DNA of 64,000 nt from Halomonas sp. KG2 (GTDB lineage: Bacteria; Pseudomonadota; Gammaproteobacteria; Pseudomonadales; Halomonadaceae). The position numbers and the translations under genes are program-made. This document shows, one piece after another, positions 15,194 through 64,000 of this stretch. Position 1 is the stretch's first letter. Every line of letters starts with the position of its first letter. The stretch lies in contig CP098528.1 in the NCBI GenBank assembly GCA_030440445.1, positions 3,472,001-3,536,000 of the forward strand, in the 5' to 3' direction. Below the pieces are notes generated by a model. That model worked only from the letters and a program-made list of their open reading frames with translations, ran no database searches and was not told the DNA's origin.

Positions 15194-15220
15194 TCACAAT
15201 ACGTACTGAAAGCTCATTGA

Positions 15221-15231: not shown

Positions 15232-15507
15232 GGGATTTATTTTTTGCAATTATTGCCCACTATTAACAACGGGCTATACAGGATGTTCACGTGGCACTTG
15301 TTAAACACTTATCAAGGCACTGAAGAAAACCTTGCCAAACCATTAACCAGCAGAGCAACTTAACCAACAAGATGATATGCGTCTAATCGCACTAAATCAT
15401 CGCAGACAACTAAAAGAGCGGTTTTCTATGAAGGATTGCCCTAATGGATCACACGCTATCCTGAGTTAACTTTCCAACCCTAAAAATCACAACTGGAGAG
15501 CACCACA

Positions 15508-15768: not shown

Positions 15769-15774
15769 GCCAGT

Positions 15775-38525: not shown

Positions 38526-38577
38526 CAACTCACAACTCACAACTCACAACTCACAACTCACAACTCACAACTCACAA
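38526..38577. repeat. Heptanucleotide microsatellite (CAACTCA)7
   Basis: Seven perfect head-to-tail copies of CAACTCA (38526-38574) plus CAA lie between the trmO stop and the kinase gene. The kinase's last codons and its TGA stop (38565-38567) lie inside the array. Because that stop is met within the first two units as read by the kinase, gain of copies would not change the protein. Confidence 0.9.
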
Positions 38578-40871
38578 AAAGGTAGCTTCATTGTAAATTG
38601 ACTGCCTTTACCAAACTCACTTTCACAATAAATTTCGCCGCCATGCTTAGCTGCTACCGTTTTCACTAATGCTAGCCCTAGACCATGCCCATCCGCCATT
38701 CCATCTTTATCACTGCGAGTAAAGTCGTCAAAAATATCGTTAATCTCATCAGACTCAATACCAACGCCATTGTCAGAAACCTGCAGCACAATCCACCTAT
38801 CCTGTCGATACACAAAAACATTAACTTCGCCTCCAGAAGGCGTATACTTAACGGCATTTTCAATTAAGTTAAAGACGGCTCTTGCAAGATAGTTTTTGTC
38901 GCCCATCATCGGGGCGCCGTCTTCATCTTTGAGCTTTCTCACCATTTTAATATCTTTTACTTTCGCAAGTGGGTAAACTTGATCTAGCACTTCCATAACA
39001 ACATCTTCAAAAAGCACAAACTCTTTTTTCAAATCAAATGACTTGGCTCGCGTTAAATTAATAAAGTCGTTAATCATCCCAAGTCCCATCGTGAGGCATT
39101 GTTCCAAATAGCTATAGAAATTAGCTTGCGATGCGGCCGAGGCTGGATTTTTTTGGGCTTCTAGAAATGCTAGCGCTCTTGCCTGAGGAGCTTTCATATC
39201 ATGTGATAAGAAACTAAGCATACTAGACCTCTGTGCTTCAGCTTCTACTTCACTTGTCAGGTCAACCAGCCATACTAACCAGCCCCCAGCCGCACTATTC
39301 GTCGTTGTAGATAACTCTCCCATCTCCAGTCGGTACGTTCGCCCATCCCTGTCAGTACATAATCCACCTATTTGAATGCCGTTGACGTTACTCGTGTCAG
39401 CTGGCTGGGGTGGCCATATAGTCGAAAAACCGTGTTTCTCTTCAAAGGTTAGGAAGGATGGCAAAGCATCAATGTGATCGATGGCATGCTCTCCTTCCTC
39501 CCAACAAATCGCCAATGCTTTTTTATTTGCCTGTAGAACCTCTCCCTTCTTATTTAGTATGAAGATGGGGAGCGGTAATGAGTGCATTGCATCTAATATG
39601 AATCGCCGCCCTTCTACAATTCTATCTAGCGCAAATTCAAGTGCTTGAGACTGCTGATAAAGCTTCCCACCCTCACCTCGAATATCATCAGGCTGCCTAA
39701 AGGGCAAGATAGATGGTTCTTGATATAACAATTCCAGCTCGCGCTTAAACCAAGACAGTAAGGCTGCCTGGCTTTGCCAAACAATTGCAATGATGGCGAT
39801 CCCCAACGCTATTAAGCTCGCAAAAGGAGGCCACCACCACCTAAAATTCAGCGCTACTAAAGAAGCGAATAACACACCAGTACCGAGCGACAGCACCACT
39901 AATAGCAAATAGCGAAACCTTAGCCACCATGCCAGTAGAATTAAAATAACAATAGGTAAGCTTGCTAAAAATGCCCCTAGCCAACTATCCACTTCGCGTA
40001 TATAAGTTTCATTTCGTAGGGCATCGAGTAAGTGAGCATGCACCTCAACACCTGGCATTAAACCTGAAGACAATAACGACACATTGTAACGATCGCCCAA
40101 ACCAAGAGCAGTCATGCCCACTAAGACAGTGCGACCTCGGAGCAAAGAAGCGGGTACATACCCCATTAATACATCATGGTAAGAAACGGTCGGATATGAG
40201 CCAGATGGACCACGAAATGGTATTCTTATCGCCTCAGTTGGCCAGTTTGATGATATATCACTCCCTCCCTTTTTTTCTGGATCCACAAGAAGGGTCATTA
40301 GCTGTGGCCAGACATCATCACCGCGCTCAATCAACAGCTCCACTGACCGAGCTACTCCATCAGCATCAAGCATCACATTGATATGCCCAACGCCTTTGGC
40401 GGCAGATAATAATGGAGAGGGGGGGATTAAGACATCTCGTGTCCTACCGTCCAGCAGCGATTCAGAAAGTAGTGCCATAGGTAGATAAGTGCGGCCATGG
40501 CGATCCATCGCATTGGCAAGCTGCCGATCCTCTTCAGGTAGCCGACTTGGCTCAACTAAAAGGATGTCCAAAACAATCGATTGCACGCCCGCAGCGTTCA
40601 ACTGATCAATCAGCTGTGTGTGAACATCTCTAGACCAAGGCCAACGCCCCAATGCTTGTAAACTGGGTTCATCGATCGCTACAACTAAAATATCGTCAGA
40701 GGGAGGCTCTGATTGCCTGGAAAGCCAAGCATCGTAAAAAAAATTATCAGACAGTAAGGGAGACAAACTATAAAGAAAGAAAGCAATGGGCAGTAACAAG
40801 CTACCCATTGCACACCATGTCATCACAAACCGCCGGTGCAATGCTCTAGAAAGGTTACTTCCCTGAGTCAT
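38565..40871 (-). CDS. CHASE2-domain sensor histidine kinase
   Basis: Membrane-bound kinase of 768 residues. One N-terminal helix (about 16-38) is followed by an extracytoplasmic CHASE2 domain (about 40-290, with ILVVAIDEPSLQALGRWPW and GRTVLVGMTALGLGD), three more helices (about 293-370), a PAS domain (about 425-535), HisKA with H557 in LSHDMKAPQ, and an HATPase domain with NLIENAVKYT, DNGVGIES and GHGLGLALVKTVAAKHGG. No response regulator lies next to it, so it is an orphan kinase in this window. It is the last gene of the leftward series FecR-kinase. The ATG is preceded 8 bases upstream by AGAGG, which is part of a repeat element (40876-41031). The signal sensed is unknown. Confidence 0.92.
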   Translation of the reverse strand: MTQGSNLSRALHRRFVMTWCAMGSLLLPIAFFLYSLSPLLSDNFFYDAWLSRQSEPPSDDILVVAIDEPSLQALGRWPWSRDVHTQLIDQLNAAGVQSIVLDILLVEPSRLPEEDRQLANAMDRHGRTYLPMALLSESLLDGRTRDVLIPPSPLLSAAKGVGHINVMLDADGVARSVELLIERGDDVWPQLMTLLVDPEKKGGSDISSNWPTEAIRIPFRGPSGSYPTVSYHDVLMGYVPASLLRGRTVLVGMTALGLGDRYNVSLLSSGLMPGVEVHAHLLDALRNETYIREVDSWLGAFLASLPIVILILLAWWLRFRYLLLVVLSLGTGVLFASLVALNFRWWWPPFASLIALGIAIIAIVWQSQAALLSWFKRELELLYQEPSILPFRQPDDIRGEGGKLYQQSQALEFALDRIVEGRRFILDAMHSLPLPIFILNKKGEVLQANKKALAICWEEGEHAIDHIDALPSFLTFEEKHGFSTIWPPQPADTSNVNGIQIGGLCTDRDGRTYRLEMGELSTTTNSAAGGWLVWLVDLTSEVEAEAQRSSMLSFLSHDMKAPQARALAFLEAQKNPASAASQANFYSYLEQCLTMGLGMINDFINLTRAKSFDLKKEFVLFEDVVMEVLDQVYPLAKVKDIKMVRKLKDEDGAPMMGDKNYLARAVFNLIENAVKYTPSGGEVNVFVYRQDRWIVLQVSDNGVGIESDEINDIFDDFTRSDKDGMADGHGLGLALVKTVAAKHGGEIYCESEFGKGSQFTMKLPFCEL

Positions 40872-40875
40872 TTAG

Positions 40876-41031
40876 GAAACCTCTGATTAACTATTGCGCT
40901 TGTCCATACTGCGTTAAAAATCATCTCGTGCGCGAGTCCGATCAAAATGCTCATTTACACCCCGTAAACTGCGCTTTTTCGTTGATTTTTTCCTTGTCTG
41001 GCCTGCGCTCATAACGTTAATCAGAGGCTCC
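40876..41031. mobile_element. MITE-like element with 12-bp terminal inverted repeats
   Basis: CCTCTGATTAAC (40880-40891) and GTTAATCAGAGG (41016-41027) are perfect inverted ends of a roughly 150-bp element without a coding region. Its right end supplies the TGA stop of the FecR-protein gene and its left end supplies the AGAGG ribosome site of the kinase gene. The outer limits are uncertain by a few bases, and no clear target duplication was seen. Confidence 0.7.
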
Positions 41032-42298
41032 TTAGTGTTCCAGCATCGAGAACAACAGCCATATCTGTACGTTCACCTAAGCTGACAACACGCCAGAATA
41101 TCTCGTTACCTGGCAAACGGCTTACTCTTAAAGGACCATTATTTTGAGGTTCATAATCCAATAAAACTCGCGTAAATTCGTGATCAGCAGCTAGTTGCAA
41201 GCGATAGTTTGTTTGTGCTTTATGGAACCACTCGAATATCCACGCATCTTCCTCCTGTTTAACGGATACTCGATCACCATGGTGATGAATAACGAAAATA
41301 GTGCTCTCACCTTCAATACCTAGCTCATCTATAGCGGATATGCGTAAATGGTAGAACCCTGGAGGAAGTGGGTCGAACTGTATCTGGCTGCTCTGAGATC
41401 GCTGATCACGTATTATCGTTAAAAAGTTTGGATCACTTGCTATTTGCGCTCTGAAAGCCTGCCCCTGCATAGGCGATAAAATATCTACTTGTATGGCTTC
41501 ATTTGAAAGCGAATTGATAGCCACTCCCTCTGGTGGAGGTAATAGCTGTACTACTTGGATACCACCTGCTTCATCAACACGTGCACCCTCTCCCTCATTT
41601 ATTGAGGCTTCGGCAGTATCCACCCGATGTTGAGCAGCAACATTTCCCTCATAAACCGACGTTAGCAGTGCTTCGTCTGTATAGCTTGCCCGAAAGTGAG
41701 TACCGCGCACACCTAGGACGCCCGCAGTTGTTTCTATATTGTATGCTCGTCTGCGCATGCGATTTGTAGGCACATAAGACTCTATCTCTCCATGCTCTAA
41801 TTGAAACGTGATGCCTCTCTCCCCTTCACGCTTTAACACAATGCGTGAATTAGAAGGTACCACCGCCCTAGCCCCGTCACGCATCTGAACGGTCAAGGAA
41901 GAACCTGGGCCAGTTTGAATAACGGAGTCGACCTTAATAAGGTCTCCACTCTCTAAAAGATTTTCACCGTTCTCTTCGACTATCCATGCATCTCCCGAAC
42001 GGTATAGAACTGACAAGGGAAAAGGGTCGAGAGCACTGAGGTCCACCATGGTATCAGGCTGAAGTTTGAAGGGATCAGCTATCGCATTCACTTGCTGCAA
42101 AGTAGGCCACTCGTCAGGAGTACCATAATAATATTCGGAGATATCCCAAAGTGTATCGCCTGGCATCACTTGATGGTGTGTATCAGATGCATAGGCAAGC
42201 CCCCAATTCAGTAAAAACACACCTCCGAATACAACGCCTAAAAGATGTTGTAATAGTGACTGAGCTTTCAGACGACTCCCGCTGCTTCTTATATTCAT
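41021..42298 (-). CDS. Secreted LysM and FecR-domain protein
   Basis: Exported protein of about 425 residues from the ATG at 42298; an in-frame ATG at 42358, with AGGA upstream, would give 445. After a signal peptide (cleavage near AYASD) comes a LysM domain (HQVMPGDTLWDISEYYYG), which usually binds peptidoglycan, then a FecR domain (SGDLIKVDSVIQTGPGSSL through TTAGVLGVRGTHFRASY), then a region with fibronectin-like strands. Unlike classical FecR it has no cytoplasmic anti-sigma part. LysM-FecR proteins often accompany CHASE2 signalling proteins, as here. The last two or three residues and stop lie within the MITE-like element. Confidence 0.88.
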   Translation of the reverse strand: MNIRSSGSRLKAQSLLQHLLGVVFGGVFLLNWGLAYASDTHHQVMPGDTLWDISEYYYGTPDEWPTLQQVNAIADPFKLQPDTMVDLSALDPFPLSVLYRSGDAWIVEENGENLLESGDLIKVDSVIQTGPGSSLTVQMRDGARAVVPSNSRIVLKREGERGITFQLEHGEIESYVPTNRMRRRAYNIETTAGVLGVRGTHFRASYTDEALLTSVYEGNVAAQHRVDTAEASINEGEGARVDEAGGIQVVQLLPPPEGVAINSLSNEAIQVDILSPMQGQAFRAQIASDPNFLTIIRDQRSQSSQIQFDPLPPGFYHLRISAIDELGIEGESTIFVIHHHGDRVSVKQEEDAWIFEWFHKAQTNYRLQLAADHEFTRVLLDYEPQNNGPLRVSRLPGNEIFWRVVSLGERTDMAVVLDAGTLRSL

Positions 42299-42390
42299 AA
42301 CGCCACCATCTTCAATGCGCATAGGTACGCTTGGTAATGTATTTCTTTCAAACAGCATTAATTTCTATCCTGAATTCAGGATTAAAAAGA

Positions 42391-43308
42391 TCACTCAATT
42401 AGTGTATTGGATATCCAACCTAAAGCGGGTGCATTGCCCTGTTCGAAGTAGACTTGACTCCATCCATCCATGCTCCCTAGCACGTAAACAGTGGTGCCTT
42501 TTGTCAATGACGCAATACGTTCAAAATCAGTACTTGCTCCCGCGCGGATATTAACGCGGCTTCCGGCAATTTGCTTTTCTTCAAGATTAGGCAGGCTGGC
42601 ATTAATATTTTCTTGCGCCAAACCATTGCCCCCTTGAGCAGCCATAACAAACCAAAAAACAGCCCAAGCATGGTTACGTTCAACCCCATGCCCCCTAGCG
42701 TGCATCGCACCTAAATTATTTTGTGCGAACGGATCATTTTGCTTCGCAGCACGTTCATACCACTCAAACGCGCGGGTATAGCTTTGCTCTACTCCACGAC
42801 CTGTTTCGTAAAGGCTTCCGATATTGTTCTGAGCTGCCACATGTCCCTGCTCAGCAGCCAACTCAAACCATCTCGCTGCAAGCTCAGCATTTTCATCAAC
42901 GCCCTCACCTTCCAAATACAATAAACCTAGTTGAAATTGCGCTGCAGCATTGCCCGCCTCGGCAGCCCGCTCAAACCATTGCGCGGCTGATCCTGGGTCG
43001 CCATCAAGACGTTCAAGAAGATAAAGCTCAGCCAGCCTAACCTGAGCATCTGTGAGCCCATTATCCGCCGCAAGTCGGTACCATTTGTAGGCTTCATCTA
43101 AGCTGGCACTTACTCCTTGGCCGCGTTCGAACATCATTCCCAGTGCAAACTGAGAGTCCGAGTTGCCTCGTTCTGCTGCCGTACGCCACTCATGAATAGC
43201 GGAGGCATAATGACCACGCTGGTATTCGTCAAGCCCTGCCTCATAATCCGCACTGGCTAGCGTGCTAACCCCGACAAAAACAAGGCTCAACCAGGGTAGT
43301 ATCCTCAT
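42391..43308 (-). CDS. Sel1-repeat protein with C-terminal SH3b domain
   Basis: Exported 305-residue protein from the ATG at 43308, which has GGAAGG about 8 bases upstream. The signal peptide ends near LASA. Five to six Sel1/TPR-like repeats follow, each with the A-x2-G-x4-LG pattern (for example GNSDSQFALGMMFERGQGV and GHVAAQNNIGSLYETGRGV), then an SH3b domain in the last 55 residues (RVNIRAGASTDFERIASL). Such proteins act as periplasmic scaffolds; no specific partner is evident. The FecR-protein gene follows 33-92 bp later on the same strand. Confidence 0.9.
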   Translation of the reverse strand: MRILPWLSLVFVGVSTLASADYEAGLDEYQRGHYASAIHEWRTAAERGNSDSQFALGMMFERGQGVSASLDEAYKWYRLAADNGLTDAQVRLAELYLLERLDGDPGSAAQWFERAAEAGNAAAQFQLGLLYLEGEGVDENAELAARWFELAAEQGHVAAQNNIGSLYETGRGVEQSYTRAFEWYERAAKQNDPFAQNNLGAMHARGHGVERNHAWAVFWFVMAAQGGNGLAQENINASLPNLEEKQIAGSRVNIRAGASTDFERIASLTKGTTVYVLGSMDGWSQVYFEQGNAPALGWISNTLIE

Positions 43309-43322
43309 ATTCAGGCCTTCCT

Positions 43323-43356
43323 TCACAAAAGCCCGATAGACTCTCGTCTACCGGGC
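43323..43356 (-). terminator. Terminator after the DUF6447 gene
   Basis: GCCCG-A-TAGAC (43331-43341) pairs with GTCTA-C-CGGGC (43346-43356) with one mismatch, loop TCTC. On the minus strand it is followed by TTTTGTG. It separates the TAA-associated genes from the Sel1-FecR-kinase group. Confidence 0.7.
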
Positions 43357-43392
43357 ATTCAATAAAATTGAGCAATCTCACCACTTACGAGA

Positions 43393-43722
43393 TTACTTCA
43401 CTGGCGTTATCGACTGCGTCACTTCTGCCAAAATACGGGCATAAGTATTGCGGGCCGTTTGCGTAATAGCCAGTTGATCTTGTAAACGCTGTAGTTCTTG
43501 ATCAGTTACTCGCAGGTTCTGAATTTGTTCGCGCCCCTGCTGTCCCAGGCTTTCAAGCGTGTACTCTTTACCATCTATCGTGACAGTTGGCTGTGCTGCT
43601 TGTTCACCAACGGCAACCGCTGATTCACTCTCATTAGCAGTTACGTTTTTATCGCTTTGGTTGGCTTCACTTTTACTAACTGCTCTGCTTTTTACTGAAC
43701 TTGACGTGCGCGGTTTGCTCAT
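43393..43722 (-). CDS. DUF6447 family small protein
   Basis: A 109-residue protein with a low-complexity, Ser/Lys-rich N-terminal half and a conserved C-terminal half, VTIDGKEYTLESLGQQG followed by a helix (LQRLQDQLAITQTARNTYARIL) likely to form a coiled coil. This matches DUF6447, whose function is unknown. No signal peptide is seen. GAGGTAGTTCCTT precedes the ATG. It lies among the adhesin-associated genes, before a terminator. Confidence 0.8.
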   Translation of the reverse strand: MSKPRTSSSVKSRAVSKSEANQSDKNVTANESESAVAVGEQAAQPTVTIDGKEYTLESLGQQGREQIQNLRVTDQELQRLQDQLAITQTARNTYARILAEVTQSITPVK

Positions 43723-43788
43723 AAGGAACTACCTCTCAGTTAATGTAAATTATCATAAAATAATAAGAGCAATTATCTAAGTGCTCAA

Positions 43789-44199
43789 TTAGGAGTCTTC
43801 TTCGACCGCTTCTTCTTCAACTGCTTCAATAGCGTTAACAGCTTCAGCTGGCGTACCGACACGCTCATGGGTCAGCACACAAAGTACACCAGTGCGTGTA
43901 TGTTGAATTTCAAAGTTTGTATCGCAGAAAAGAGCCATGGTATTAAGCACACGGTTTTCAAGTAATAGTGGGTTTTGCAAGTCACTTTCATTGACGACCA
44001 AACGTGCTAAAAATATACCACCTTCGGGGCACCCTAGCGCTTGCTCGTCACTTACTGCGACACATACCGAGCCTTGATCCACAGACTTCTTAGCGGGTTC
44101 CTCTTGCTGCTCCGCCATTACCCCCATACTGAATACAGATAGAACAACTGCCGCCGCAACTGCTGCTACGAACGTCGTGAGATAGCCAACATACTTCAT
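43789..44199 (-). CDS. Small secreted protein of unknown function
   Basis: A 136-residue protein with a clear signal peptide (hydrophobic 7-29, cleavage after GVMA). The mature part has four cysteines (in VCVAV, LGCPE, LFCDT and LCVLT), possibly two disulfides, and an acidic C-terminal tail (AVEEEAVEEDS). AGGAA precedes the ATG by 8 bases. I do not recognise the family. It follows the TpgA-like gene on the same strand after a terminator-like hairpin, so a role with the adhesin is only suggested by position. Confidence 0.75.
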   Translation of the reverse strand: MKYVGYLTTFVAAVAAAVVLSVFSMGVMAEQQEEPAKKSVDQGSVCVAVSDEQALGCPEGGIFLARLVVNESDLQNPLLLENRVLNTMALFCDTNFEIQHTRTGVLCVLTHERVGTPAEAVNAIEAVEEEAVEEDS

Positions 44200-44226
44200 T
44201 ATTTCAGTTCCTAATTTTCAGTTGTT

Positions 44227-44253
44227 AAAAGGCAGGGATAACACTATATCCCT
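44227..44253 (-). terminator. Terminator after the first TpgA-like gene
   Basis: AGGGATA (44234-44240) pairs with TATCCCT (44247-44253). Read leftward, the stem is followed by GCCTTTTAAC. It lies about 45 bp after the stop of the lipoprotein gene. Confidence 0.65.
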
Positions 44254-44296
44254 ACCGTTAGTAGTTATCTTTAGTACTAGTTAGCTACATAAGCAA

Positions 44297-55500: not shown

Positions 55501-58500
55501 CTTGTTGCCTGCCATGTCCAAGCCGCCAGTCAAGGTGGTTTGGCCAGTCACGTTCAGCGTGCCGCCGATGGTGGCGTTGTTGGCAACATCTAGCGTGTTG
55601 GTGGTGACGCTGTTGACGTTCAGGTCATCGCTCATGGCAATAACAAGGGTCTCGTCGTCGGTCACTTCCGTGCTGAGGTTGGCGTTGCTGGTGACGATAT
55701 CCAACTGGTCACCTAGCTTACGATCGGTCGTACCAGTATCGCCGCCGAAGGTGATCGGGGTGTCCGCAAGGTCACCAATGCCACCATCCACATACTCTTT
55801 GTTGACGATGTGGGTGTTCTCAGTGATGGCTCCGTCGTAGAACGCTTCGTTATTAACGACCTTGAAGTTGTCACCCAGGTAGGTGTCGCCTTGAACAATC
55901 GTGTCGCCCGCGATGGTAGTGTTGCCACCAATATTGGTATCGCCAGAGACATTCACTTCGGTGAAGTCAACGATATCCGTCGTCGCCACGGTGATATCAG
56001 TGCCGTTGCGAGTAATGGCGATGTTCTGGCCATTTTCGAACTGCACGGTATCGCCCGGTGCCACATTGGTAGCTGTGTCACCGTTGGTCTGGACGTTCCA
56101 GCCTTTGTTGGCCACATCACTAACGTCGGTCAACTGGTCAACGTTCACTGCGTCGGTGCCATCCGTACCTGGCCCAACGTTGGTGATCTTGTTGCCTGCC
56201 ATGTCCAAGCCGCCAGTCAAGGTGGTTTGGCCAGTCACGTTCAGCGTGCCGCCGATGGTGGCGTTGTTGGCAACATCTAGCGTGTTGGTGGTGACGCTGT
56301 TGACGTTCAGGTCATCGCTCATGGCAATAACAAGGGTCTCGTCGTCGGTCACTTCCGTGCTGAGGTTGGCGTTGCTGGTGACGATATCCAACTGGTCACC
56401 TAGCTTACGCTCTGTGGTACCAGTGTCGCCGCCGAAGGTGATCGGGGTGTCCGCAAGGTCACCAATGCCACCATCCACATACTCTTTGTTGACGATGTGG
56501 GTGTTTTCAGTGATGGCACCGTCGTAGAACGCTTCGTTGTTGACGACCGAGAAGTTGTCACCCAGGTAGGTGTCACCATCAACGTCCAAATTATTGGAGA
56601 CATTGACGTTGGTGAAGTCAACATTGTCTGCAGTGGCAACCGTGATGTCAGTGCCAAAGCGCGTGATATCGATGTTCTTGCCATCGATGAACTGGACGGT
56701 AGCGTTAGGTGCCACATTCGTCGCTGTATCACCGTTGGTCTGGACGTTCCAGCCAGCGCTGGCAACATCATTCACTGCTTTCAACTGGCTAACGTTGACC
56801 GCATCGCTATCCGCCGTGCCCGCGGCCACGCCGGTGATTTGACGGAACACATTGGTTCCGTCACCCACGGCCACCGCCCCGGTAGTGCTCTCGGTGGCAG
56901 CAATCGCCGCATCCATACCATCGGCGGCGCTGGTAGTCGGGTTGTAACCTGCCACACCCGCACCGGTATCGGCGATGGAACCATTACCCAGCGCCACGCC
57001 CTCGGCAACGGTGACATCCGCGCCGTTACCGATCACGAAGGCATTGGCGACATCGACATCATTGCCGTTGCCGATGATGCGGCTGCCTGTGGCGGAAGCA
57101 CTCATCAGGTTGTTATTGCCGAAGATGCCAGCATTATCAGCAGAAATTGGCGCAGCTGCAGTGCCGTTGTTGTTACCTAGGGTATAGGTGCCACTCCCAC
57201 TCACATAACTCGGATCACCAATCGCGCCTGAATTATCGCCATCTACCACGTTTTTAGTACCAATACTGATCGATTGGCTGCCCGTGGCTTTAGCGTCATG
57301 CCCCAGGGCGATAGCGTTTTTGGCTGCTTCCGCGTCAGAGCCCATTGCCACCGCATTACTCGCACTGGTTTTAGCCCTAGAGCCAATGGCAATTGAACTG
57401 TTTGCCTTTGATTCGATAGTTGATAAGTTAGTGGCGGAAGTACCCAAGGCAATCGAGTCATAAGCCCCAGCCTCATTCTTCGCTGATCTGCCGATGGACA
57501 CTGCTCCTGGAGCGCCCTCTCCAACAGTGGCCGCAGACCCCAACGCGACGCTATCCCACGCACTGTCACCTATGCTGGAATTCCTGCCAATGGCCGTAGC
57601 ATTGCGCGATTTATCGCCCACGACAGCCGCAGAGCCGATCGCCGTGGCACCATCGGAGTCCTCGACACTTGCCACTGTCCCTATTGTTGCATTCGAGCCG
57701 ATCGCTGTGGCGTTGGCTGAGCCATTAATCGCGACATCCGCGCCTAAGCCAATAGAAGGACCTCCATCGGATGTTCCATCCACGCTAGCACCGCGTCCCA
57801 TGGCGACATCACCTTTGGCCAGGACTTGCGCATCATGGCCGATGGCCATGCCCGACACGGCACCTTCAAGCACCTTGGCGTTGCGACCGACTGCCGTGGC
57901 AGAGGTGGCACCACTTTCCACTGTCGCGCCCTGCCCGACGGCCACTGAGCCCCACGCATTAACCGTGGCACTACTACCAATTGCCGTGGAAAAAGTGGCC
58001 TTATTCGCCACTTTCGAGCTGCTGCCGATGGCGATTGAGCTGTTTGCATTGTCGCCGACCTTCGCATTGGGGCCGATAGCTGCGGCATAGCTTGACCCCA
58101 TCCCCGTGCTTGCATGGGAGCCTAAGGCAAGGGCAGCTGTCTCGTTAGCCTTTGCCTGACGACCAATAGCGATGACCGAGTTTACAGCTACTGTACTGGT
58201 ACCTGTCGCCGTTGCATCTTCACCAATGGCAATGGAGGTGCCACCAAACGCCTGCGCTCCCGTACCGATGGCCACGTTGTCAGCTTGGTTCCCTGTCGCG
58301 CCAGCAATGACCCCCGTCTCGGCCGAGTTACCAATGGCAATGTCCCGCGTTGTACCTGCAGTGGCCGTATCGCCAACGGCCACTGCGGACTGTCCGGAAG
58401 CGGTTGCCTGCGCGCCTTGCGCAATACCATAATCACCCTTGGCTTCTGCCTCAGTACCAAAGGCGATACTGTCTTTCCCTGATGTTTGAGCGGCATAGCC

Positions 58501-59307
58501 GATCGCCGTGCTTCTCTCAGCGTCACTGCGCGTACCAGAACCGATCGCGATGCCATCGGTTGCCGTTACGCGTGTTCCCGAAGCATCAACCGTACCATTC
58601 GAGACCGTACCACCAATCGTTCCGGTATCAAGTGCGTTCCCAATAGACAGGCCCCTCAACGCACCAGCTTCTGCCTGGGCACCCACCCCAATGGCCGTAG
58701 AGTCACGCCCTAGCCCCTTGGCACGCCGGCCAATCGCAGTGGAATTATGGCCAGTGCTTCGTGTCGACGTACCAAAGGCTACAGAAGCGTAGCCGGCCGA
58801 TTGCGCATCGTTGCCGAACGCCGAGGAAAAATCGCCATCCGAAACAGCCCCGCTTCCAACGGCCGCGGAAAAGCCCCCTTTTGCCGTCGATAAAATCCCA
58901 ATCGCAAGGCTCGACTCTCCGCTCGCTGCCGCCTTTACTCCAATCGCGGTAGCCGATAACGCTGATGCATTGGTAGCTACCCCAATAGCCGTCGCATGAT
59001 CTGCACAAGCTTTTGAGCTATACCCGAGCGCAAGCCGTGTAATGTCGCCATTACAATCGTCCCCGCCAAAACCTTCATGGGCCTGTCCGCTTGGCATAAC
59101 CAGCACCAGCGAGCCAACGGCCAGCGCGACGGCAACAACAGCAGGACGCAGCAGAGCGGGCACGCCTGAGAAGGCGATTTCTGGCGCGGGCAGTTGGCCA
59201 ACCACTCCTTTTCGCGTGGCGGCTTTATCACGACTACGCGCTGCTTCCGAGACGACTACCAGCCGACCAAGGGCCCGGTTCCAAATTAGTCGAAACACGT
59301 TATTCAT
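45142..59307 (-). CDS. Giant trimeric autotransporter adhesin (TAA 1), 4721 residues
   Basis: Complete surface fibre protein. The extended signal peptide opens MNNVFRLIWNRALGRLVVVSE (ESPR), with cleavage near A76. Residues about 105-830 form a YadA-like head of 14-residue repeats with xAIGxxAxA patterns. A neck (AVNVSQLK) near 836 leads into a stalk to about 4200 built of three tandem families: about 236 residues x3, 146 residues x10, and about 152-residue units arranged in two 436-residue blocks. A second head-like stretch lies near 4240-4330, then necks (DAINGSQL, DAVNVRQLD), and the last 95 residues form the four-strand YadA anchor ending in W. The stalk contains 21 copies of an NKxYVD motif. 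Cysteines C85 and C101 lie near the mature N-terminus. Probably mediates adhesion or biofilm growth; the ligand is unknown. Confidence 0.95.
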   Translation of the reverse strand: MNNVFRLIWNRALGRLVVVSEAARSRDKAATRKGVVGQLPAPEIAFSGVPALLRPAVVAVALAVGSLVLVMPSGQAHEGFGGDDCNGDITRLALGYSSKACADHATAIGVATNASALSATAIGVKAAASGESSLAIGILSTAKGGFSAAVGSGAVSDGDFSSAFGNDAQSAGYASVAFGTSTRSTGHNSTAIGRRAKGLGRDSTAIGVGAQAEAGALRGLSIGNALDTGTIGGTVSNGTVDASGTRVTATDGIAIGSGTRSDAERSTAIGYAAQTSGKDSIAFGTEAEAKGDYGIAQGAQATASGQSAVAVGDTATAGTTRDIAIGNSAETGVIAGATGNQADNVAIGTGAQAFGGTSIAIGEDATATGTSTVAVNSVIAIGRQAKANETAALALGSHASTGMGSSYAAAIGPNAKVGDNANSSIAIGSSSKVANKATFSTAIGSSATVNAWGSVAVGQGATVESGATSATAVGRNAKVLEGAVSGMAIGHDAQVLAKGDVAMGRGASVDGTSDGGPSIGLGADVAINGSANATAIGSNATIGTVASVEDSDGATAIGSAAVVGDKSRNATAIGRNSSIGDSAWDSVALGSAATVGEGAPGAVSIGRSAKNEAGAYDSIALGTSATNLSTIESKANSSIAIGSRAKTSASNAVAMGSDAEAAKNAIALGHDAKATGSQSISIGTKNVVDGDNSGAIGDPSYVSGSGTYTLGNNNGTAAAPISADNAGIFGNNNLMSASATGSRIIGNGNDVDVANAFVIGNGADVTVAEGVALGNGSIADTGAGVAGYNPTTSAADGMDAAIAATESTTGAVAVGDGTNVFRQITGVAAGTADSDAVNVSQLKAVNDVASAGWNVQTNGDTATNVAPNATVQFIDGKNIDITRFGTDITVATADNVDFTNVNVSNNLDVDGDTYLGDNFSVVNNEAFYDGAITENTHIVNKEYVDGGIGDLADTPITFGGDTGTTERKLGDQLDIVTSNANLSTEVTDDETLVIAMSDDLNVNSVTTNTLDVANNATIGGTLNVTGQTTLTGGLDMAGNKITNVGPGTDGTDAVNVDQLTDVSDVANKGWNVQTNGDTATNVAPGDTVQFENGQNIAITRNGTDITVATTDIVDFTEVNVSGDTNIGGNTTIAGDTIVQGDTYLGDNFKVVNNEAFYDGAITENTHIVNKEYVDGGIGDLADTPITFGGDTGTTDRKLGDQLDIVTSNANLSTEVTDDETLVIAMSDDLNVNSVTTNTLDVANNATIGGTLNVTGQTTLTGGLDMAGNKITNVGPGTDGTDAVNVDQLTDVSDVANKGWDLTANGEAVGENIAPGETADFSQGKNIAITRTGNSIEVATADDVDFTNVNVTNQLDVAGDTNIGGNTTIAGDTIVQGDTYLGDSFKVVNNEAFYDGAITENTHIVNKEYVDGGIGDLADTPITFGGDTGTTDRKLGDALNIVTSNANLSTEVTDDETLVIAMSDDLDVNSVTTNTLDVANNATIGGTLNVTGQTTLTGGLDMAGNKITNVGPGTDGTDAVNVDQLTDVSDVANKGWNVQTNGDTTTNVAPGDTVQFENGQNIAITRNGTDITVATTDIVDFTEVNVTENLTVAGETQLGDNFVVNNDGNVTYTGEITEGDHITNKTYVDGLGDDLVAEGLNFAGNDGEVIHKDLGEQLNIVGGMTDLTADAASAENLRTVQNADGDLEVQLSKNLTNLESVESTTVNVTEELTVADNTTINEGGITTNNVDITENLTVAGETQLGDHFVVNNEGNVTYTGDITEGDHITNKTYVDGLGDDLIAEGLNFAGNDGEVIHKDLGEQLDIVGGMTDLDEDAASAENLRTVQNADGALEIQLSKNLTNLESVESTTVNVTEELTVADNTTINEGGITTNNVDITENLTVAGETQLGDNFVVNNDGNVTYTGEITEGDHITNKTYVDGLGDDLVAEGLNFAGNDGEVIHKDLGEQLNIVGGMTDLTADAASAENLRTVQNADGDLEVQLSKNLTNLESVESTTVNVTEELTVADNTTINEGGITTNNVDITENLTVAGETQLGDNFVVNNDGNVTYTGDITEGDHITNKTYVDGLGDDLIAEGLNFAGNDGEVIHKDLGEQLDIVGGMTDLDEDAASAENLRTVQNADGALEIQLSKNLTNLESVESTTVNVTEELTVANNTTINEGGLTTNNVDITENLTVAGETKLGDNFVVNNEGNVTYTGDITEGDHITNKTYVDGLGEDLVAEGLNFAGNDGEVIHKDLGEQLDIVGGMTDLTADAASAENLRTVQNADGALEIQLSKNLTNLESVESTTVNVTEELTVANNTTINEGGLTTNNVDITENLTVAGETQLGDHFVVNNDGNVTYTGEITEGDHITNKTYVDGLGDDLVAEGLNFAGNDGEVIHKDLGEQLNIVGGMTDLTADAASAENLRTVQNADGALEIQLSKNLTNLESVESTTVNVTEELTVADNTTINEGGITTNNVDITENLTVAGETQLGDHFVVNNEGNVTYTGDITEGDHITNKTYVDGLGDDLIAEGLNFAGNDGEVIHKDLGEQLDIVGGMTDLDEDAASAENLRTVRNENGELEIQLSKNLTNLESVESTTVNVTEELTVANNTTINEGGLTTNNVDITENLTVAGETKLGDNFVVNNEGNVTYTGDITEGDHITNKTYVDGLGDDLIAEGLNFAGNDGEVIHKDLGEQLDIVGGMTDLDEDAASAENLRTVQNADGDLEVQLSKNLTNLESVESTTVNVTEELTVADNTTINEGGITTNNVDITENLTVAGETKLGDNFVVNNEGNVTYTGEITEGDHITNKTYVDGLGDDLVAEGLNFAGNDGEVIHKDLGEQLNIVGGMTDLTADAASAENLRTVQNADGDLEVQLSKNLTNLESVESTTVNVTEELTVADNTTINEGGITTNNVDITENLTVAGETKLGDNFVVNNEGNVTYTGEITEGDHITNKTYVDGLGDDLVAEGLNFAGNDGEVIHKDLGEQLNIVGGMTDLTADAASAENLRTVQNADGDLEVQLSKNLTNLESVESTTVNVTEELTVADNTTINEGGITTNNMTVNENLTVEGDTHLNENLYVDGSTTINENLTVEGDTHLGDHFSIVNNEAYYDGPITEGDHITNKTYVDNSVTELGDTPLTFGANEGEDTERRLGDRLDIVGEADDEGHSNIITKVTDEETLELALNADLNVDNSITVGDTFIDGDSITTNNMTVNENLTVEGDTHLNENLYVDGSTTINENLTVEGDTHLGDHFSIVNNEAHYDGSITEGDHITNKTYVDNSVTELGDTPLTFGANEGEDTERRLGDRLDIVGEADDEGHSNIITKVTDEETLELALNADLNVDNSITVGETFIDGDSITTNNMTVNENLTVAGETRLGDNFFVNNEGNVTYTGDITEGDHITNKSYVDNSVTELGDTPLTFAGDSGESFERRLGETANVKGGAEGGLTEGNIGVVADGEDTLNIQLAENIDLGEDGSLTINETLIDGDQVITNNMTVNENLTVEGDTFLNENLTVAGNTTINENLTVEGDTYLGDSFSVVNNEAHYDGPITDETHITNKQYVDNSVSEVADTPLTFGANEGEDTERRLGDRLDIVGEADDEGHSNIITKVTDEETLELALNADLNVDNSITVGETFIDGDSITTNNMTVNENLTVEGDTFLNENLYVDGSTTINENLTVEGDTHLGDHFSIVNNEAYYDGPITEGDHITNKSYVDNSVTELGDTPLTFGANEGEDTERRLGDRLDIVGEADDEGHSNIITKVTDDETLELALNADLNVDNSITVGETFIDGDSVTTNNMTVNENLTVAGETRLGDNFFVNNEGNVTYTGDITEGDHITNKNYVDNSVTELGDTPLTFAGDSGESFERRLGETANVKGGAEGGLTEGNIGVVADGEDTLNIQLAENIDLGEDGSLTINETLIDGDQVITNNMTVNENLTVEGDTFLNENLTVAGNTTINENLTVEGDTYLGDSFSVVNNEAHYDGPITDETHITNKQYVDNSVSEVADTPLTFGANEGEDTERRLGDRLDIVGEADDEGHSNIITKLSDDETLKLALNADLNVDNSITVGETFIDGDSITTNNMTVNENLTVVGETRLGDNFFVNNEGNVTYTGEITEGDHITNKSYVDNSVGEVADTPLTFGANEGEDTERRLGDRLDIVGEADEEGNSNIITKLSDDETLELALNDDLKIVSSITVGEDGPTISGDGIDMGDNKITNVADGDVSADSKDAINGSQLYQLESIVTNVTGDISNEYVTENGLGIRYVRTNDSGLAVSDAFAQGEGSTAVGYEAIASADRALALGYDAIASHQGSVALGEGARTAEAVSTASVEIAGQTYQFAGVSPVATVSVGSVGAERTVTNVAAGRISAESTDAINGSQLYATNQAVGELDNRVTTVEGDISNITNDLADLDDRAVKYDRNDDGSVDYNTITLEGDGGTKITNVAPGDIAQNSSDAVNGSQLWDVQNQITNIEQGGSKYFRANSDGPAADPQGADSIAMGSDSVAAGDRSVASGAGAQAKAEGSVALGADSVADREGMNGERERFSNESVASTQGAVSVGSEGNERQITNVAGGTRDTDAVNVRQLDAVQRGAVNYDRDEDGNVDYSTITLKGAEGTTITNVAPGVNETDAVNVGQMNELGRRFENEIVNVHGRIDSVERNANAGSASAIAASTVPQAWMPGKSMIGVGAGTYGGESAVSVGVSRLSDNGRWVIQGKVTGDSQSNFGAGIGAGWHW
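47100..49680 (-). repeat. Two tandem 1308-bp blocks in the TAA 1 stalk
   Basis: Sequence from about 47100 to 48370 recurs 1308 bp further on with very few differences (for example the segments at 47456 and 48764, and 47848 and 49156). Each block encodes 436 residues made of smaller units with GDTPLTFGANEGEDTERRLG-type and GESFERRLGETANV-type sequences. Additional 456-bp units continue to about 50184. Confidence 0.85.
50185..54558 (-). repeat. Ten tandem 438-bp repeats in the TAA 1 stalk
   Basis: Each unit encodes 146 residues from NVDITENLTVAGE to TINEGGITTN; the first as translated lacks two residues. All ten carry GEVIHKDLGEQL and NKTYVDGLG. Units fall into two main types, LTADAASAEN and LDEDAASAEN, that alternate at first and then become mixed, which suggests repeated unequal exchange. 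Confidence 0.95.
54559..56760 (-). repeat. Three tandem repeats of about 708 bp in the TAA 1 stalk
   Basis: Corresponding points lie 708 bp apart (55102 and 55810), the most N-terminal copy being about 20 bp shorter. Each encodes about 236 residues including NKEYVDGGIGDLADTPITF, NATIGGTLNVTGQTTLTGG and the neck-like GTDAVNVDQLTDVSDVANKG. Confidence 0.85.
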
Positions 59308-60163
59308 TATTTAGAACTCCACTAATTATTCGGTGAGGAGGTGCTGTTGCCTCGCTCAGTTACCTTTACCTTGACCTTGGCCATCTCGGTACAATGTTGA
59401 TGCTCAGAAGCAACACCTAACCCAGCGCAACACTTTTCCGACTCAGCAACCGCTGAATGCCACTAAACAACCGGAGCATTCGCAACGCAGCTACAGACAA
59501 ACGACCAATTCGAATAACCGCCAGCCGCTGCCCTAAAGCGCAGACGTTAGCGATTTTGTTCAAGGTTCCTTTTAGTGGATACATTCTCTTACTTAGATAA
59601 TCACAATCTCAATATGGGTTTAAGATTGTTAACATTCACATAGATGTAAAAACAACCCAGACTTAGAGATCTATTTACCTAATTTAATAATCATTATTTT
59701 TAACAAAATATTCACTATACAGATCGTTCATAACCACTCTTTCCACTTTCTCGCAGACAGTCAAAAACATGGCTATCAACGCCTTGAAAATAATGAAAAA
59801 AAATACACCGGAATTTAACAAGCCACGCTATTAAAGCCGAAAAAATAGCTATTCATTAAAATTCATTATGATGAAATAACATTCGCAGCCAGGTTGATAT
59901 TCAGCAATCGTTAACTAATTTTACCTAGAGAACCTCACACTATTTACAATTGTTCATACAAACCCCCTCTCACAAAACACTTATTAGTTGAACTCAGGAG
60001 TAGGCAGCCAGACTTACAGCACTAAGAAACAATCTTAAACACTTTCGTCATCTCAATTAAAAAGCGACTTTTATAGCCATATAAAAGCCCACGATGCGCA
60101 TGCTTATTAAAGCGTGAACATCGTGGGCATTGGGGTCGAGCTGTTATTGACTGACTAGAGTGC
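59308..60163. other. AT-rich intergenic region between the two adhesin units
   Basis: No gene is evident in these 856 bases, by far the most AT-rich part of the window. It should hold the TAA 1 promoter (read leftward). GGAG lies about 10 bases before the TAA 1 ATG. A 13-base word, AACAATCTTAAAC, occurs at 60028-60040 and again inverted at 59618-59630, and may be a paired binding site. The terminator of the second TpgA-like gene is at its right end. Confidence 0.6.
60081..60128 (-). terminator. Terminator after the second TpgA-like gene
   Basis: GCCCACGATG (60087-60096) pairs with CATCGTGGGC (60119-60128), with further pairing possible inside. On the minus strand it is followed by TTTTATA. 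Confidence 0.8.
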
Positions 60164-60985
60164 TTATTGCAGCGTCATCTCCACTCTGCGATTAGGCCTC
60201 AAGCACTCCTTCACGCTTGGTGTAGCCACTTGACCTGGGCAATCAACGATAGGGTCGGCCTCTCCTCTTCCTAGCAGCGTTAAGTTACGTCGCTCTATTC
60301 CCTGTGAGACTAGATAACTGCCAACTGCCTCCGCACGTGACTGAGACAAGCTAAGATTATACTGCTCCTCACCAAATCGATCCGTGTAGCCAACAACGAG
60401 TACACTTGGTGATGAGTAGGCATCAAGCACCATATCTGACACCCGTTCCAAAGCGCGTCGCCCCTCTAACGAGAGTTGGTCACTATCAAAATCAAATAGC
60501 ACATCGCCTGATAACGTTAATTTCTCTTCACGCGGCTCAGCGGCTATTTCTTCTACTTCGATTGGCACCAATAACGCCGGACATTGCGCGTCGCGCCAAC
60601 GCGTGCTTTCTAACGCCATCTCATCATCATAGTGCACTTGGTATTGGCAGGTGATGTACTCATTGCCATTGCCCGTGTACAGGTTGAATACGTAGTTCCA
60701 CTCTCGAACGCCAAAGAATCCTTCCGCGTAATGGGGATTGCCGATCAGTTGCCGTACTTGGTCTTTGCTTTGCCCTTCTGCAATACGAAGCACGCTATCC
60801 GGCTCCACAAACTTGCCACCGTCATACCAGTTGCCCGCTAGCGCCGGAAAGCCATCACCCGCTTCACGCAACTCTGTACGGTCACTGTTAGGCGGGCTAG
60901 CACAGCCTGCTAACACGAGAACGGCGGCGATACTGGCGGCCCCGAGGGCCGCCTTGGTCATCATGCTGTTACTAAGATTGTTCAC
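60164..60985 (-). CDS. TpgA-like lipoprotein, partner of TAA 2
   Basis: A 273-residue paralogue of the lipoprotein at 44297, with the same GTG start, lipobox (C28), BamE-like domain and OmpA-like C-terminal domain. The first 165 residues differ at only about a dozen positions, but from LFDFDSD onward the OmpA domain diverges clearly (for example ERVSDMVLDAYSSPSVLVV against DLVTQTITSDFVNPSVMII), while the peptidoglycan-contact motifs GYTDRFG and RPNRRVE are kept in both. It is coupled to TAA 2 by the same stop/ribosome-site overlap. A terminator follows. Confidence 0.9.
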   Translation of the reverse strand: MNNLSNSMMTKAALGAASIAAVLVLAGCASPPNSDRTELREAGDGFPALAGNWYDGGKFVEPDSVLRIAEGQSKDQVRQLIGNPHYAEGFFGVREWNYVFNLYTGNGNEYITCQYQVHYDDEMALESTRWRDAQCPALLVPIEVEEIAAEPREEKLTLSGDVLFDFDSDQLSLEGRRALERVSDMVLDAYSSPSVLVVGYTDRFGEEQYNLSLSQSRAEAVGSYLVSQGIERRNLTLLGRGEADPIVDCPGQVATPSVKECLRPNRRVEMTLQ

Positions 60986-60996
60986 GTCGTTCTCCT

Positions 60997-63900
60997 TTAC
61001 CAGTGCCAGCCAGCGCCAATACCTGCGCCGAAGTTGCTTTGCGAGTCACCCGTCACCTTGCCTTGAATCACCCAGCGGCCATTGTCAGAAAGGCGAGAGA
61101 CACCTACCGAGACCGCCGATTCGCCACCGTAGGTGCCTGCCCCCACACCAATCATGCTCTTACCGGGCATCCACGCTTGCGGCACCGTGGAAGCAGCAAT
61201 CGCACTGGCAGAACCTGCATTAGCGTTGCGTTCAACATCGTCGATACGGCCATGCACGTTGACAATCTCGTTCTCAAAGCGACGCCCCAGCTCGTTCAAC
61301 TGCCCCACGTTGGCAGCATCGTTGGCATTAATACCTGGCGCCACATTGGTGATGGTGGTGCCTTCTGCGCCTTTCAGCGTGATGGTGCTGTAGTCAACAT
61401 TGCCATCTTCATCACGGTCGTAGTTCACCGCGCCGCGCTGAACAGCATCCAACTGACGAACGTTAACCGCGTCGGTGTCTTGGGTACCGCCTGCTACGTT
61501 GGTGATCTGACGCTCATTTCCTTCACTACCCACTGAAACGGCACCCTGTGTGGAAGCAACGGATTCGTTGGAGAAACGCTCACGCTCACCGTTCATGCCT
61601 TCACGGTCGGCAACAGAGTCCGCACCGAGGGCAACGCTGCCTTCCGCTTTGGCTTGCGCACCGGCTCCCGAAGCCACGCTACGATCGCCTGCCGCGACAC
61701 TGCCTGGCCCCATGGCGATGCTGTCAGCACCTTGTGGGTCTGCGGCGGGCCCATCGCTGTTGGCGCGGAAGTACTTGGAGCCCCCTTGTTCAATGTTGGT
61801 GATTTGGTTCTGCACATCCCATAGCTGGCCGCCGTTCACCGCATCCGAGCTGTTTTGTGCAATATCACCGGGAGCAACATTGGTGATCTTCGTGCCGCCA
61901 TCGCCTTCCAAGGTAATGGTGTCATAGTTAACACTGCCATCGTCGTTGCGGTCATATTGCACCGCGCGGTCATCCAGATCCGCCAAGTCGTTGGTGATAT
62001 TAGTGATATCGCCTTCGACATTGGTGACGCGGTTGTCTAGCTCACCGACTGCCTGGTTGGTGGCATACAACTGGCTGCCGTTAATGGCATCAGTGCTCTC
62101 AGCCGAAATTCGGCCTGCTGCGACGTTCGTCACCGTTCGCTCAGCACCGACGCTGCCAACGCTGACGGTGGCTACTGGGGAAACACCCGCAAACTGGTAC
62201 GTTTGGCCTGCAATTTCAACCGATGCGGTGCCAACCGCTTCTGCAGTGCGAGCCCCTTCCCCTAACGCGACACTCCCTTGGTGCGAAGCAATCGCGTCGT
62301 ACCCCATCGCCAGAGCGCGATCTACCGAGGCAACGGCTTCGTAGCCCACGGCGGTGGAGCCTTCTCCTTGGGCAAAGGCATCGCTGACTGCTAAGCCACT
62401 GTCGTTGGTGCGCACGTAGCGAATACCACGACCGTTGTTGGTGATGTACTCATCGCTTCCGTCACCCACCACGTTGGTAACGCTGTTTTCTAGCACTTCG
62501 ATCCACTGATTCGTGGCGTAAAGTTGAGAGCCGTTGATGGCATCCTTGCTATCGGCTGAGACATCGCCTTCGGCTAAGTTGGTGATGCCCTCACTACTAA
62601 TGACTGGCCCGTCTTGTCCGACGGTAAGGCTATTAGCAACTGATACATCATCGGATAGACCAAAAGCGACTTCTTCACGATCATTAACCGTGGCCTGGGT
62701 GATGAGTATGTTACCGTCATCACTTAAGAGGTTAACTTCACCCGTTGGGGCCACATTGCTAGCGTCGCCATCTTCAACGCTCAGGTTCCATCCAGCGTTC
62801 GCCGCGGCACTCACCTCTTCGATAGCCTGATTAGAAGCAAACAATTGGCTGCCATTGATGGCATCGGTGCTGGTAGCACTTACTCGCCCTGCTGCCACAT
62901 TAGTGATCGTACGCTCATTACCCACACTACCAACACTGACAGTGCTCATCGGCGTAGTGCCTGCAAACGAGTAATCATTGCCGATCAGTGTAATACCCTG
63001 GGTCGCAACCGATTCATCTGTAGCACTGTTACTGCCTAACGCCACACTTTGATCGTGGCTAACCATCGCACCTGCGCCAAGAGCGATACCCTGCTGGGCT
63101 TCGGAGCGGGCATTGCTACCAAACGCTATTCCGTCTGACAGCAGTACTTCGGCACTATCGCCAATGGCAGTGCCGCCTGGAGCCATTTGACCGACAATCG
63201 CGCCGTTACCAATGCCAATGCCGTTATCACCGTTTGTGACGGTGGTCGGGCCAACGGCAATGCTATCGTTACCTGCTGCAAGTGAGTCGGGCGCTGTAGA
63301 GTTGGCGTGGAAATACTTAGTGCCTGTAGCCACCACGGAGCCTATCGCTCCCTGAAGCTGGCGCACGGTGACAGCGTCTTGCGCTTCAGTACCATCGGCA
63401 ACATTAATAATCTGACGGTAAGAGTCGCTGTCCCCGACGGAAATCGAACCAAGTAATTCTTTGTCGGTGGTGTTGTACTCAATGGTTGCCGAACCCACAG
63501 GAATAAATCCTGATTCTGGCGCTAAAGCACGGTCAGAAATCGAGCCACTACCCAGTGCCAAGCTATCTGTAATCGGCGCGTTAGCACCAAATCCCATGGC
63601 CACGGCACCTTCACCACTGGCGCTAGCATCTACGCCACTAGCGATGGCATTCAACCCCGTGGCACCATCGTTATTAAAGTTGCCACCGACAGTGCCGCCG
63701 TCGTTCACACTGTAGTAACGGGCACGGTTTTCATTGAAATATTGGAGGTTAAGCGCATCACCGTCATCCACTGGCGTGCCTACATTGCTGATGACTTGGT
63801 TATTGGCATCAATACCACCACTCGCGGTAATGCTGGGTCCACCAGCAATGGTGAGGCCATCGTTAGTGACGGTGGTGAGGTTGCCGCTACCATCGTCTAC

Positions 63901-64000
63901 GCTTAGACCGGTGTTGGTGAGTTGGCTGTTGCCAGCCGTCACACTATCGAGATCAAGGTCACGATTCAGGGTGATTTCCACTTCGCCTGCATCATCGATG
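60997..64000 (-). CDS. Trimeric autotransporter adhesin (TAA 2), N-terminus beyond the window edge
   Basis: C-terminal 1000 or so residues of a second adhesin. The reading frame stays open to base 64000; the GTG at 63981 is internal (it continues upstream as IDDAGE), so this is a partial gene. Visible parts are YadA-like head repeats (SGEGAVAMGFGANAP, GDNGIGIGNGAIVGQ), necks (DAINGSQLFASNQAI, DAVTVRQLQ), and the same C-terminal ~475 residues and anchor as TAA 1, ending GAGIGAGWHW. The long 438-bp repeats of TAA 1 are absent from the visible part. It lies directly upstream of its own TpgA-like gene. Confidence 0.93.
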   Translation of the reverse strand, partial: IDDAGEVEITLNRDLDLDSVTAGNSQLTNTGLSVDDGSGNLTTVTNDGLTIAGGPSITASGGIDANNQVISNVGTPVDDGDALNLQYFNENRARYYSVNDGGTVGGNFNNDGATGLNAIASGVDASASGEGAVAMGFGANAPITDSLALGSGSISDRALAPESGFIPVGSATIEYNTTDKELLGSISVGDSDSYRQIINVADGTEAQDAVTVRQLQGAIGSVVATGTKYFHANSTAPDSLAAGNDSIAVGPTTVTNGDNGIGIGNGAIVGQMAPGGTAIGDSAEVLLSDGIAFGSNARSEAQQGIALGAGAMVSHDQSVALGSNSATDESVATQGITLIGNDYSFAGTTPMSTVSVGSVGNERTITNVAAGRVSATSTDAINGSQLFASNQAIEEVSAAANAGWNLSVEDGDASNVAPTGEVNLLSDDGNILITQATVNDREEVAFGLSDDVSVANSLTVGQDGPVISSEGITNLAEGDVSADSKDAINGSQLYATNQWIEVLENSVTNVVGDGSDEYITNNGRGIRYVRTNDSGLAVSDAFAQGEGSTAVGYEAVASVDRALAMGYDAIASHQGSVALGEGARTAEAVGTASVEIAGQTYQFAGVSPVATVSVGSVGAERTVTNVAAGRISAESTDAINGSQLYATNQAVGELDNRVTNVEGDITNITNDLADLDDRAVQYDRNDDGSVNYDTITLEGDGGTKITNVAPGDIAQNSSDAVNGGQLWDVQNQITNIEQGGSKYFRANSDGPAADPQGADSIAMGPGSVAAGDRSVASGAGAQAKAEGSVALGADSVADREGMNGERERFSNESVASTQGAVSVGSEGNERQITNVAGGTQDTDAVNVRQLDAVQRGAVNYDRDEDGNVDYSTITLKGAEGTTITNVAPGINANDAANVGQLNELGRRFENEIVNVHGRIDDVERNANAGSASAIAASTVPQAWMPGKSMIGVGAGTYGGESAVSVGVSRLSDNGRWVIQGKVTGDSQSNFGAGIGAGWHW

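Follow-up and report, generated by a model that had tools for sequence, protein, structure and literature searches.

Two giant adhesin genes in a Halomonas genome and a candidate envelope-sensing switch at the same locus

Why would genes for giant surface adhesins be followed by genes for an envelope sensor? This question is raised by a locus of Halomonas sp. KG2, a probably salt-loving bacterium, that occupies the minus strand at 38565-64000 of the 64,000-nucleotide stretch of DNA that was analysed (G000:C1:3472001-3536000; hereafter the window). In order of transcription, it encodes trimeric autotransporter adhesin (TAA) 2, TpgA-like lipoprotein 2, TAA1, TpgA-like lipoprotein 1, a small cysteine (Cys) protein, a DUF6447 protein, a Sel1-SH3b protein, a LysM-FecR protein and a CHASE2 histidine kinase, all of which are open frames at the given place and strand in the list of open reading frames. 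A first-pass annotation had described two TAA and TpgA-like units in tandem, followed by the helper and sensor genes on the same strand, and the frames and domain matches bore this out. From the gene content of this locus and of its relatives, we propose, with a probability of roughly 60%, that it combines an adhesin unit with a dedicated envelope-sensing switch.

Linkage of the sensor pair to adhesin genes

The genes, their order and conservation, their linkage to TAAs and the position and clade of the regulator described below were read directly from the genomes. Since the order TAA-TpgA-small Cys-DUF6447-Sel1-FecR-kinase is kept in the window genome (G000) and recurs in G140, H. alkaliantarctica FS-N4 and V. 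azerica TBZ9, the layout of the locus is not a matter of chance; V. azerica TBZ9 has extra small frames between the TpgA and Cys protein genes, and its TAA and kinase are each in pieces, and in G140, where the layout is the same, regulator and kinase are separated by three TAA anchors. In this window-type arrangement, the regulator gene is divergent from the TAA series and the helper, FecR and kinase genes follow on the TAA strand. A second arrangement was found in G074, G084, H. elongata 153B and H. organivorans, where a TpgA-N lipoprotein, the kinase and the FecR protein are encoded on one side with the TAA gene divergent from them, the regulator gene lying beyond the TAA or (H. organivorans) beside a TAA on another contig. 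Judging from the named relatives, the family would be Halomonadaceae, the window type Vreelandella-like and the second group Halomonas proper.

Neighbourhoods were scored by their distance to a TAA anchor in 151 genomes of the family, which gave 22 anchor matches in 15 genomes, 52 CHASE2 matches in 32 genomes and, for the FecR-LysM query, matches in 68 genomes at E<=0.001, six of them scoring at least 230 bits; FecR-LysM matches scoring below those of G078 and G044, most of which cover LysM alone, were left out of the count of pairs. Aligning the FecR-LysM protein to the named genomes gave at least 48 loci, of which six match over most of the protein and the other 42, partial and mostly at the LysM end, were left out of the reading. 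Together, the 151 genomes and the named relatives provided 11 non-redundant FecR/kinase loci among the matches listed: G000, G140, H. alkaliantarctica FS-N4 (G151), V. azerica TBZ9 (G152), G074, G084, H. elongata 153B (G153), H. organivorans (G154), G115 (taken as H. halmophila), G139 and a gammaproteobacterial metagenome-assembled genome (MAG; G155, L072). A TAA was found within 10 kb of the pair in eight of these 11 loci (for H. elongata and H. organivorans by the N-terminal end of the TAA), and a TpgA-type protein was present at all 11. As a control, 22 of the 46 other CHASE2 matches (20 mostly better-scoring ones, plus G078 and G044) were read in all frames, and none of these 22 stretches had a TAA anchor or a TpgA-N protein in any frame. 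Since 14 of the 22 did contain a FecR-like protein, FecR proteins near CHASE2 kinases are common, and it is the link to TAA and TpgA that marks one clade.

The earlier expectation that the whole gene set would co-occur with TAAs thus held in part. The accessory genes are TAA-linked, and the claim of a gene set stands; the close FecR/CHASE2 pair is TAA-linked in four of the six genomes of the 151-genome set that have it, and it is present at the locus in only four of the 15 TAA genomes, so that the sensor is an optional part and the idea of the kinase pair as a universal TAA partner was rejected.

The regulator at the far end of the locus and known systems

The LysM domain of the LysM-FecR protein scored 20.1 bits, just under the Pfam cut-off of 20.9 (33.9 bits in a homologue). 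The kinase has CHASE2 and HATPase_c domains, a sub-threshold HisKA match, an H-box (SHDMKAP) with His557 and a linker that appears PAS-like by eye. In related genomes, an OmpR-type response regulator adjoins the same FecR/kinase pair, and its best match in the window genome shares 50% identity with it, against 35% for the match that ranks next by E-value. The corresponding gene lies outside the window, at G000:C1:3548875-3549615 and ~36 kb from the kinase; it is divergent from TAA2, whose N-terminal frame starts at 3548154, leaving a gap of 720 bp, and its product has receiver and winged-helix domains with Asp57 in the phosphoacceptor place. Since this regulator gene sits upstream of TAA2 at the far end, kinase and regulator frame the locus at its two ends, and the kinase, previously taken for an orphan, has a likely partner. 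Ten of the 11 loci have a regulator of one clade, on the kinase's contig in eight and beside a TAA on another contig in G151 and G154; these ten form one group with two V. azerica paralogs (local support 0.978), with the MAG regulator falling outside. Only at MAG L072 is the regulator contiguous with the FecR and kinase genes on one strand. Another stretch of that MAG (L126) has a 41% identical regulator match and no TAA.

The sensor gene set was also first thought to be undescribed, which did not hold: a regulator, a peptidoglycan-binding LysM-FecR protein and a CHASE2 kinase make up the BiofilmReg operon of Burkholderia contaminans, as described in passages of a 2016 report (PMC5192318). A plasposon insertion in its regulator gene abolished biofilm, with transcription of all four genes counted by the authors as stopped; orthologs were reported from Burkholderiales, as were pairs from two strains of Pseudomonas (PMC5192318). 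The passages concerned describe what CHASE2 domains recognise as unknown at the time, and they name no target genes of the switch (PMC5192318). Likened by domain make-up as described, both sets combine a CreB/OmpR-type regulator, a LysM-FecR protein and a CHASE2 kinase, the latter two encoded by adjacent genes. However, the Burkholderia set forms a single contiguous operon, in most cases including a DUF4136 gene, and those passages mention no TAA (PMC5192318), whereas the window set has its regulator gene across a TAA cluster from the other two and comes with TpgA-type lipoproteins. Since its regulator is not contiguous, we consider that the set would work like BiofilmReg and do not file it as a member. 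The Burkholderia cenocepacia cluster BCAM0218-0228, as described in parts of PMC3404963, likewise joins TAAs (three) with their own kinases (two) and regulators (three), and its authors propose that the TAAs are under the control of a two-component cascade; unlike in the window, its kinase BCAM0227 is described as a sensor of the Burkholderia diffusible signal factor (BDSF), and no LysM-FecR protein is noted in those parts (PMC3404963). Judged by title and abstract start, none of the papers among the matches listed joins LysM-FecR/CHASE2 to TAAs or deals with a Halomonas TAA locus. We know of no sensor genes at the AtaA-TpgA locus of Acinetobacter sp. Tol 5.

Adhesins, lipoproteins and helper proteins

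Judging from their domains, TAA1 and TAA2 are predicted type Vc trimeric autotransporter adhesins: PF03895, PF05658, PF05662 and PF13018 were above cut-off (Pfam scan), giving the YadA-type C-terminal anchor, the head/stalk repeats and the extended signal peptide (ESPR) of this class. The TAA1 stalk contains ten 438-bp units (94% matches) at 50182-54554. The N-terminal part of TAA2, with its ESPR and heads, is read in another frame (L003 16701-19154) than the remainder (3997-17094); the split falls in a repeat-bearing stretch, with 90-bp units at L003 16818-17011, and broken TAA frames were also seen in several relatives (L034/L063, L067, L068). Assembly error, decay or on/off switching may each explain such splits. 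TAA1 and TAA2 are 92% identical over their last 1440 nt and divergent beyond, and identity between the two tpgA-like genes is ~89% across aligned positions 1-480 and lower thereafter. This tract of TAA 3' end and tpgA 5' half probably reflects a duplication or gene conversion of recent date. The region between TpgA-like lipoprotein 2 and TAA1 has, by eye, a terminator-like hairpin just after the lipoprotein gene, and resembles in part the upstream regions of G140 TAA3 and the G151 TAA. Different regulators occur near further TAA loci of the family, such as a LuxR-type autoinducer regulator in G018 (L045 15597-16337) and a hybrid histidine kinase in G146 (L044 2-1828).

Both BamE+OmpA lipoproteins had TpgA as their best NCBIfam match, and lipoprotein 1 matched TpgA-N of PDB 9vnj with an E of 7.1e-18. 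Like TpgA in the AtaA-TpgA system of Acinetobacter sp. Tol 5, which is anchored to peptidoglycan by a peptidoglycan-binding domain (PMC13082670, in part, and PDB 9VNJ), they combine a BamE-like TpgA-N with an OmpA domain and are encoded next to a TAA. They scored 159.8 and 158.6 bits against an NF047726 equivalog cut-off of 350 bits, which is why we call them TpgA-like and do not file them as TpgA; among the matches listed, no protein in any of the 151 genomes exceeded this cut-off. The TpgA model matches all 151 genomes, mostly via OmpA domains, and each of the 13 listed matches of at least 157 bits (nine genomes) has a TAA anchor no more than 0.9 kb away.

In the second group of genomes, and likewise in the MAG, a TpgA-N-type lipoprotein paralog is encoded close to the kinase and FecR genes. 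It is closer to TpgA-N of PDB 9VNJ than to any BamE protein in G074 (E 4.5e-18 versus 6.7e-5) and in the MAG (E 4.7e-16 versus 3.2e-3). A Pfam scan that found BamE in these kinase-side paralogs detected no OmpA domain in any of six (G139 left out), and an alignment of six of the seven showed that the conserved stretch of the OmpA domain is lost; the TAA-side TpgA proteins of H. elongata and H. organivorans have both domains. Since the paralog keeps TpgA-N, the domain that binds the TAA membrane anchor in AtaA (PMC13082670, in part), and has no detectable OmpA domain, the sensor might measure the adhesin itself: the paralog would sit on, or compete for, TAA barrels without a grip on peptidoglycan and relay fibre anchoring via the LysM-FecR protein to the kinase, as a check on fibres mounted or pulled. 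We regard this idea as unlikely.

Among the helpers, the Sel1-SH3b protein (Sel1 in five stretches and SH3_3 in a domain scan) gave 18 matches in 17 of the 151 genomes at E<=1e-30. Its close homologues (at least 290 bits) were all within 3.4 kb of a TAA (10 of 10), and the eight weaker matches were all in genomes without a TAA anchor. The small Cys protein matched no Pfam or NCBIfam family; it was found in six of the 151 genomes, each time within 2.5 kb of a TAA anchor, and class-wide in one of 369 genomes, the window's own. Its 35 protein matches come, where the source is named, from Halomonas/Vreelandella except for one Guyparkeria, and some homologues have a lipobox by eye. Since its structure model had a mean pLDDT of 67.7 and no PDB match at E<=0.001, no fold was assigned. 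Random placement among genomes would give P values of 3e-7 (small Cys, 6/6) and 2e-12 (Sel1-SH3b, 10/10), which ignore kinship and serve only as a guide. Among the papers listed, none deals with Sel1-SH3b or small Cys proteins in connection with TAAs, as judged by titles and abstract starts. DUF6447 proteins occur in 27 of the 151 genomes, and the three of the long form are all at TAAs, within 3.4 kb of the anchor; no signal peptide was seen by eye in the window protein. Short DUF6447 proteins are encoded just 3' of large DUF4347/RTX or DUF4214 proteins in three of five loci examined (L128, L129, L130), and proteins of this family may accompany large surface proteins more generally.

The 135-bp element between the FecR and kinase genes has six full or partial matches genome-wide and looks like a small non-autonomous mobile element; in G140, the FecR and kinase genes overlap at this place.

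Table 1. Features of the adhesin locus, in window positions
Feature	Position	Strand	Remarks
TAA2, C-terminal 1000 residues (heads, stalks, YadA anchor)	60997..64000	-	~12 kb more beyond the window
TpgA-like lipoprotein 2, BamE-type TpgA-N + OmpA domain	60164..60985	-	
Intergenic region upstream of TAA1	59308..60163	-	856 bp
TAA1, ESPR, YadA heads, long repeated stalk, YadA anchor	45142..59307	-	4721 aa
TpgA-like lipoprotein 1, BamE-type TpgA-N + OmpA domain	44297..45130	-	
Small Cys protein	43789..44199	-	N-terminal hydrophobic helix
DUF6447 protein, long form	43393..43722	-	
Sel1-repeat + SH3b protein	42391..43326	-	signal peptide (by eye)
LysM-FecR protein	41021..42358	-	N-terminal signal/anchor (by eye)
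Repeated element between FecR and kinase genes	40885..41019	.	135 bp, inverted ends
CHASE2 histidine kinase	38565..40871	-	768 aa

An adhesin switch and its alternatives

In the reading that we prefer, each of the two giant TAAs would, once exported, be anchored with a TpgA-like lipoprotein of its own tying the barrel to peptidoglycan, and the Sel1-SH3b, small Cys and DUF6447 proteins would serve as helpers. At one end of the locus, the LysM-FecR protein and the CHASE2 kinase would monitor the condition of the cell wall or the outer membrane, and the kinase would phosphorylate the OmpR-type regulator, which would then switch TAA transcription, most likely as an activator; this role is a guess made because disruption of the Burkholderia regulator removed biofilm. 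In this model, we infer which regulator the kinase pairs with, what is sensed, which promoters are targeted and whether control is positive or negative. It is supported by a gene order conserved in four genomes and a second arrangement that keeps the same parts, by the TpgA-type proteins (11/11), one-clade regulators (10/11) and TAAs (8/11) of the listed loci, by the 0/22 controls with a TAA anchor or TpgA-N protein, and by the control of biofilm by the same three components in Burkholderia.

Several observations weigh against it. Three of the 11 loci (G139, G115 and MAG L072) have no adjoining TAA, although a TAA is present on another contig in G115, and 11 of the 15 TAA genomes have no TAA-linked pair, so that the sensor is neither required nor exclusive. 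G078 and G044 have more distant FecR/CHASE2 pairs (103-104 bits) without TAA; their OmpA-type proteins match TpgA weakly. At MAG L072, the adjoining OmpR-type regulator is only 37% identical and outside the clade, and the two V. azerica paralogs inside it (58% identical; L124 6309-7085 and L125 7384-8211) lie away from TAAs, which is where the prediction that such paralogs would be TAA-linked failed. A single long transcript is also uncertain, since a terminator-like hairpin lies between the DUF6447 and Sel1 genes and the 135-bp element precedes the kinase gene; operon borders could not be argued from a promoter/terminator scan, because it gave fewer promoter-like sites than shuffled sequences (6 versus 10.1) and only 9 terminator-like sites versus 6.0.

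Finally, no convincing regulator site shared by the regions upstream of TAAs was found. The nearest candidate was a 27-nt block taken from G140 TAA3 (27/27), with 24/27 matches at G140 TAA2 and 23/27 at G151, but only 18/27 in G152 and upstream of either G000 TAA (in one case on the reverse strand) and 13-16/27 in nine other upstream regions. The block is kept as a lead only. Its TTAAC-N6-TTCAC shape resembles the CreB tag, on which a literature search gave no result.

Considerably less probable than an adhesin switch, in our view, is that control by the sensor module extends to envelope or biofilm functions in general, the TAAs being only one neighbour that was inserted into a pre-existing biofilm-regulator locus. 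The three loci without TAA and the 14 TAA-free control stretches with a FecR-like protein fit this view, as does the absence of the words autotransporter and adhesin (and Halomonas) from PMC5192318 in a whole-text word search. It explains less well why a TpgA-N-type lipoprotein stays near the module even without a TAA, and why the TAA linkage persists through two gene arrangements. It is improbable, in our view, that there is no functional link at all, the sensor genes being kept by synteny and the unit consisting of TAA, TpgA, Sel1-SH3b, small Cys and DUF6447 only. The accessory genes are indeed more tightly TAA-linked than the kinase pair, and the spacing (gaps of 97, 66, 66, 32 and 149 bp from TpgA-like lipoprotein 1 through the kinase) together with the hairpin would permit separate transcription. 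But the flanks differ: window-type loci are flanked by purC, a BamC-like gene and dapA past the regulator and by trmO and a nadC-type gene downstream of the kinase (in the window together with an acetyltransferase gene), whereas G074 has others, among them an ABC transporter and a nitronate monooxygenase, and the sensor genes are nonetheless found with a TAA in eight of the 11 loci.

Altogether, the sensor type is known from Burkholderia, and its bracketing of giant adhesin genes in Halomonas-type bacteria is a variant. The Sel1-SH3b protein and the small Cys family are two added TAA-linked partners. By bracketing giant adhesins with a BiofilmReg-type sensor set, the locus offers a direct candidate target for the switch, and this set, of a kind tied to biofilm formation elsewhere, may tell the cell when to make its fibres.

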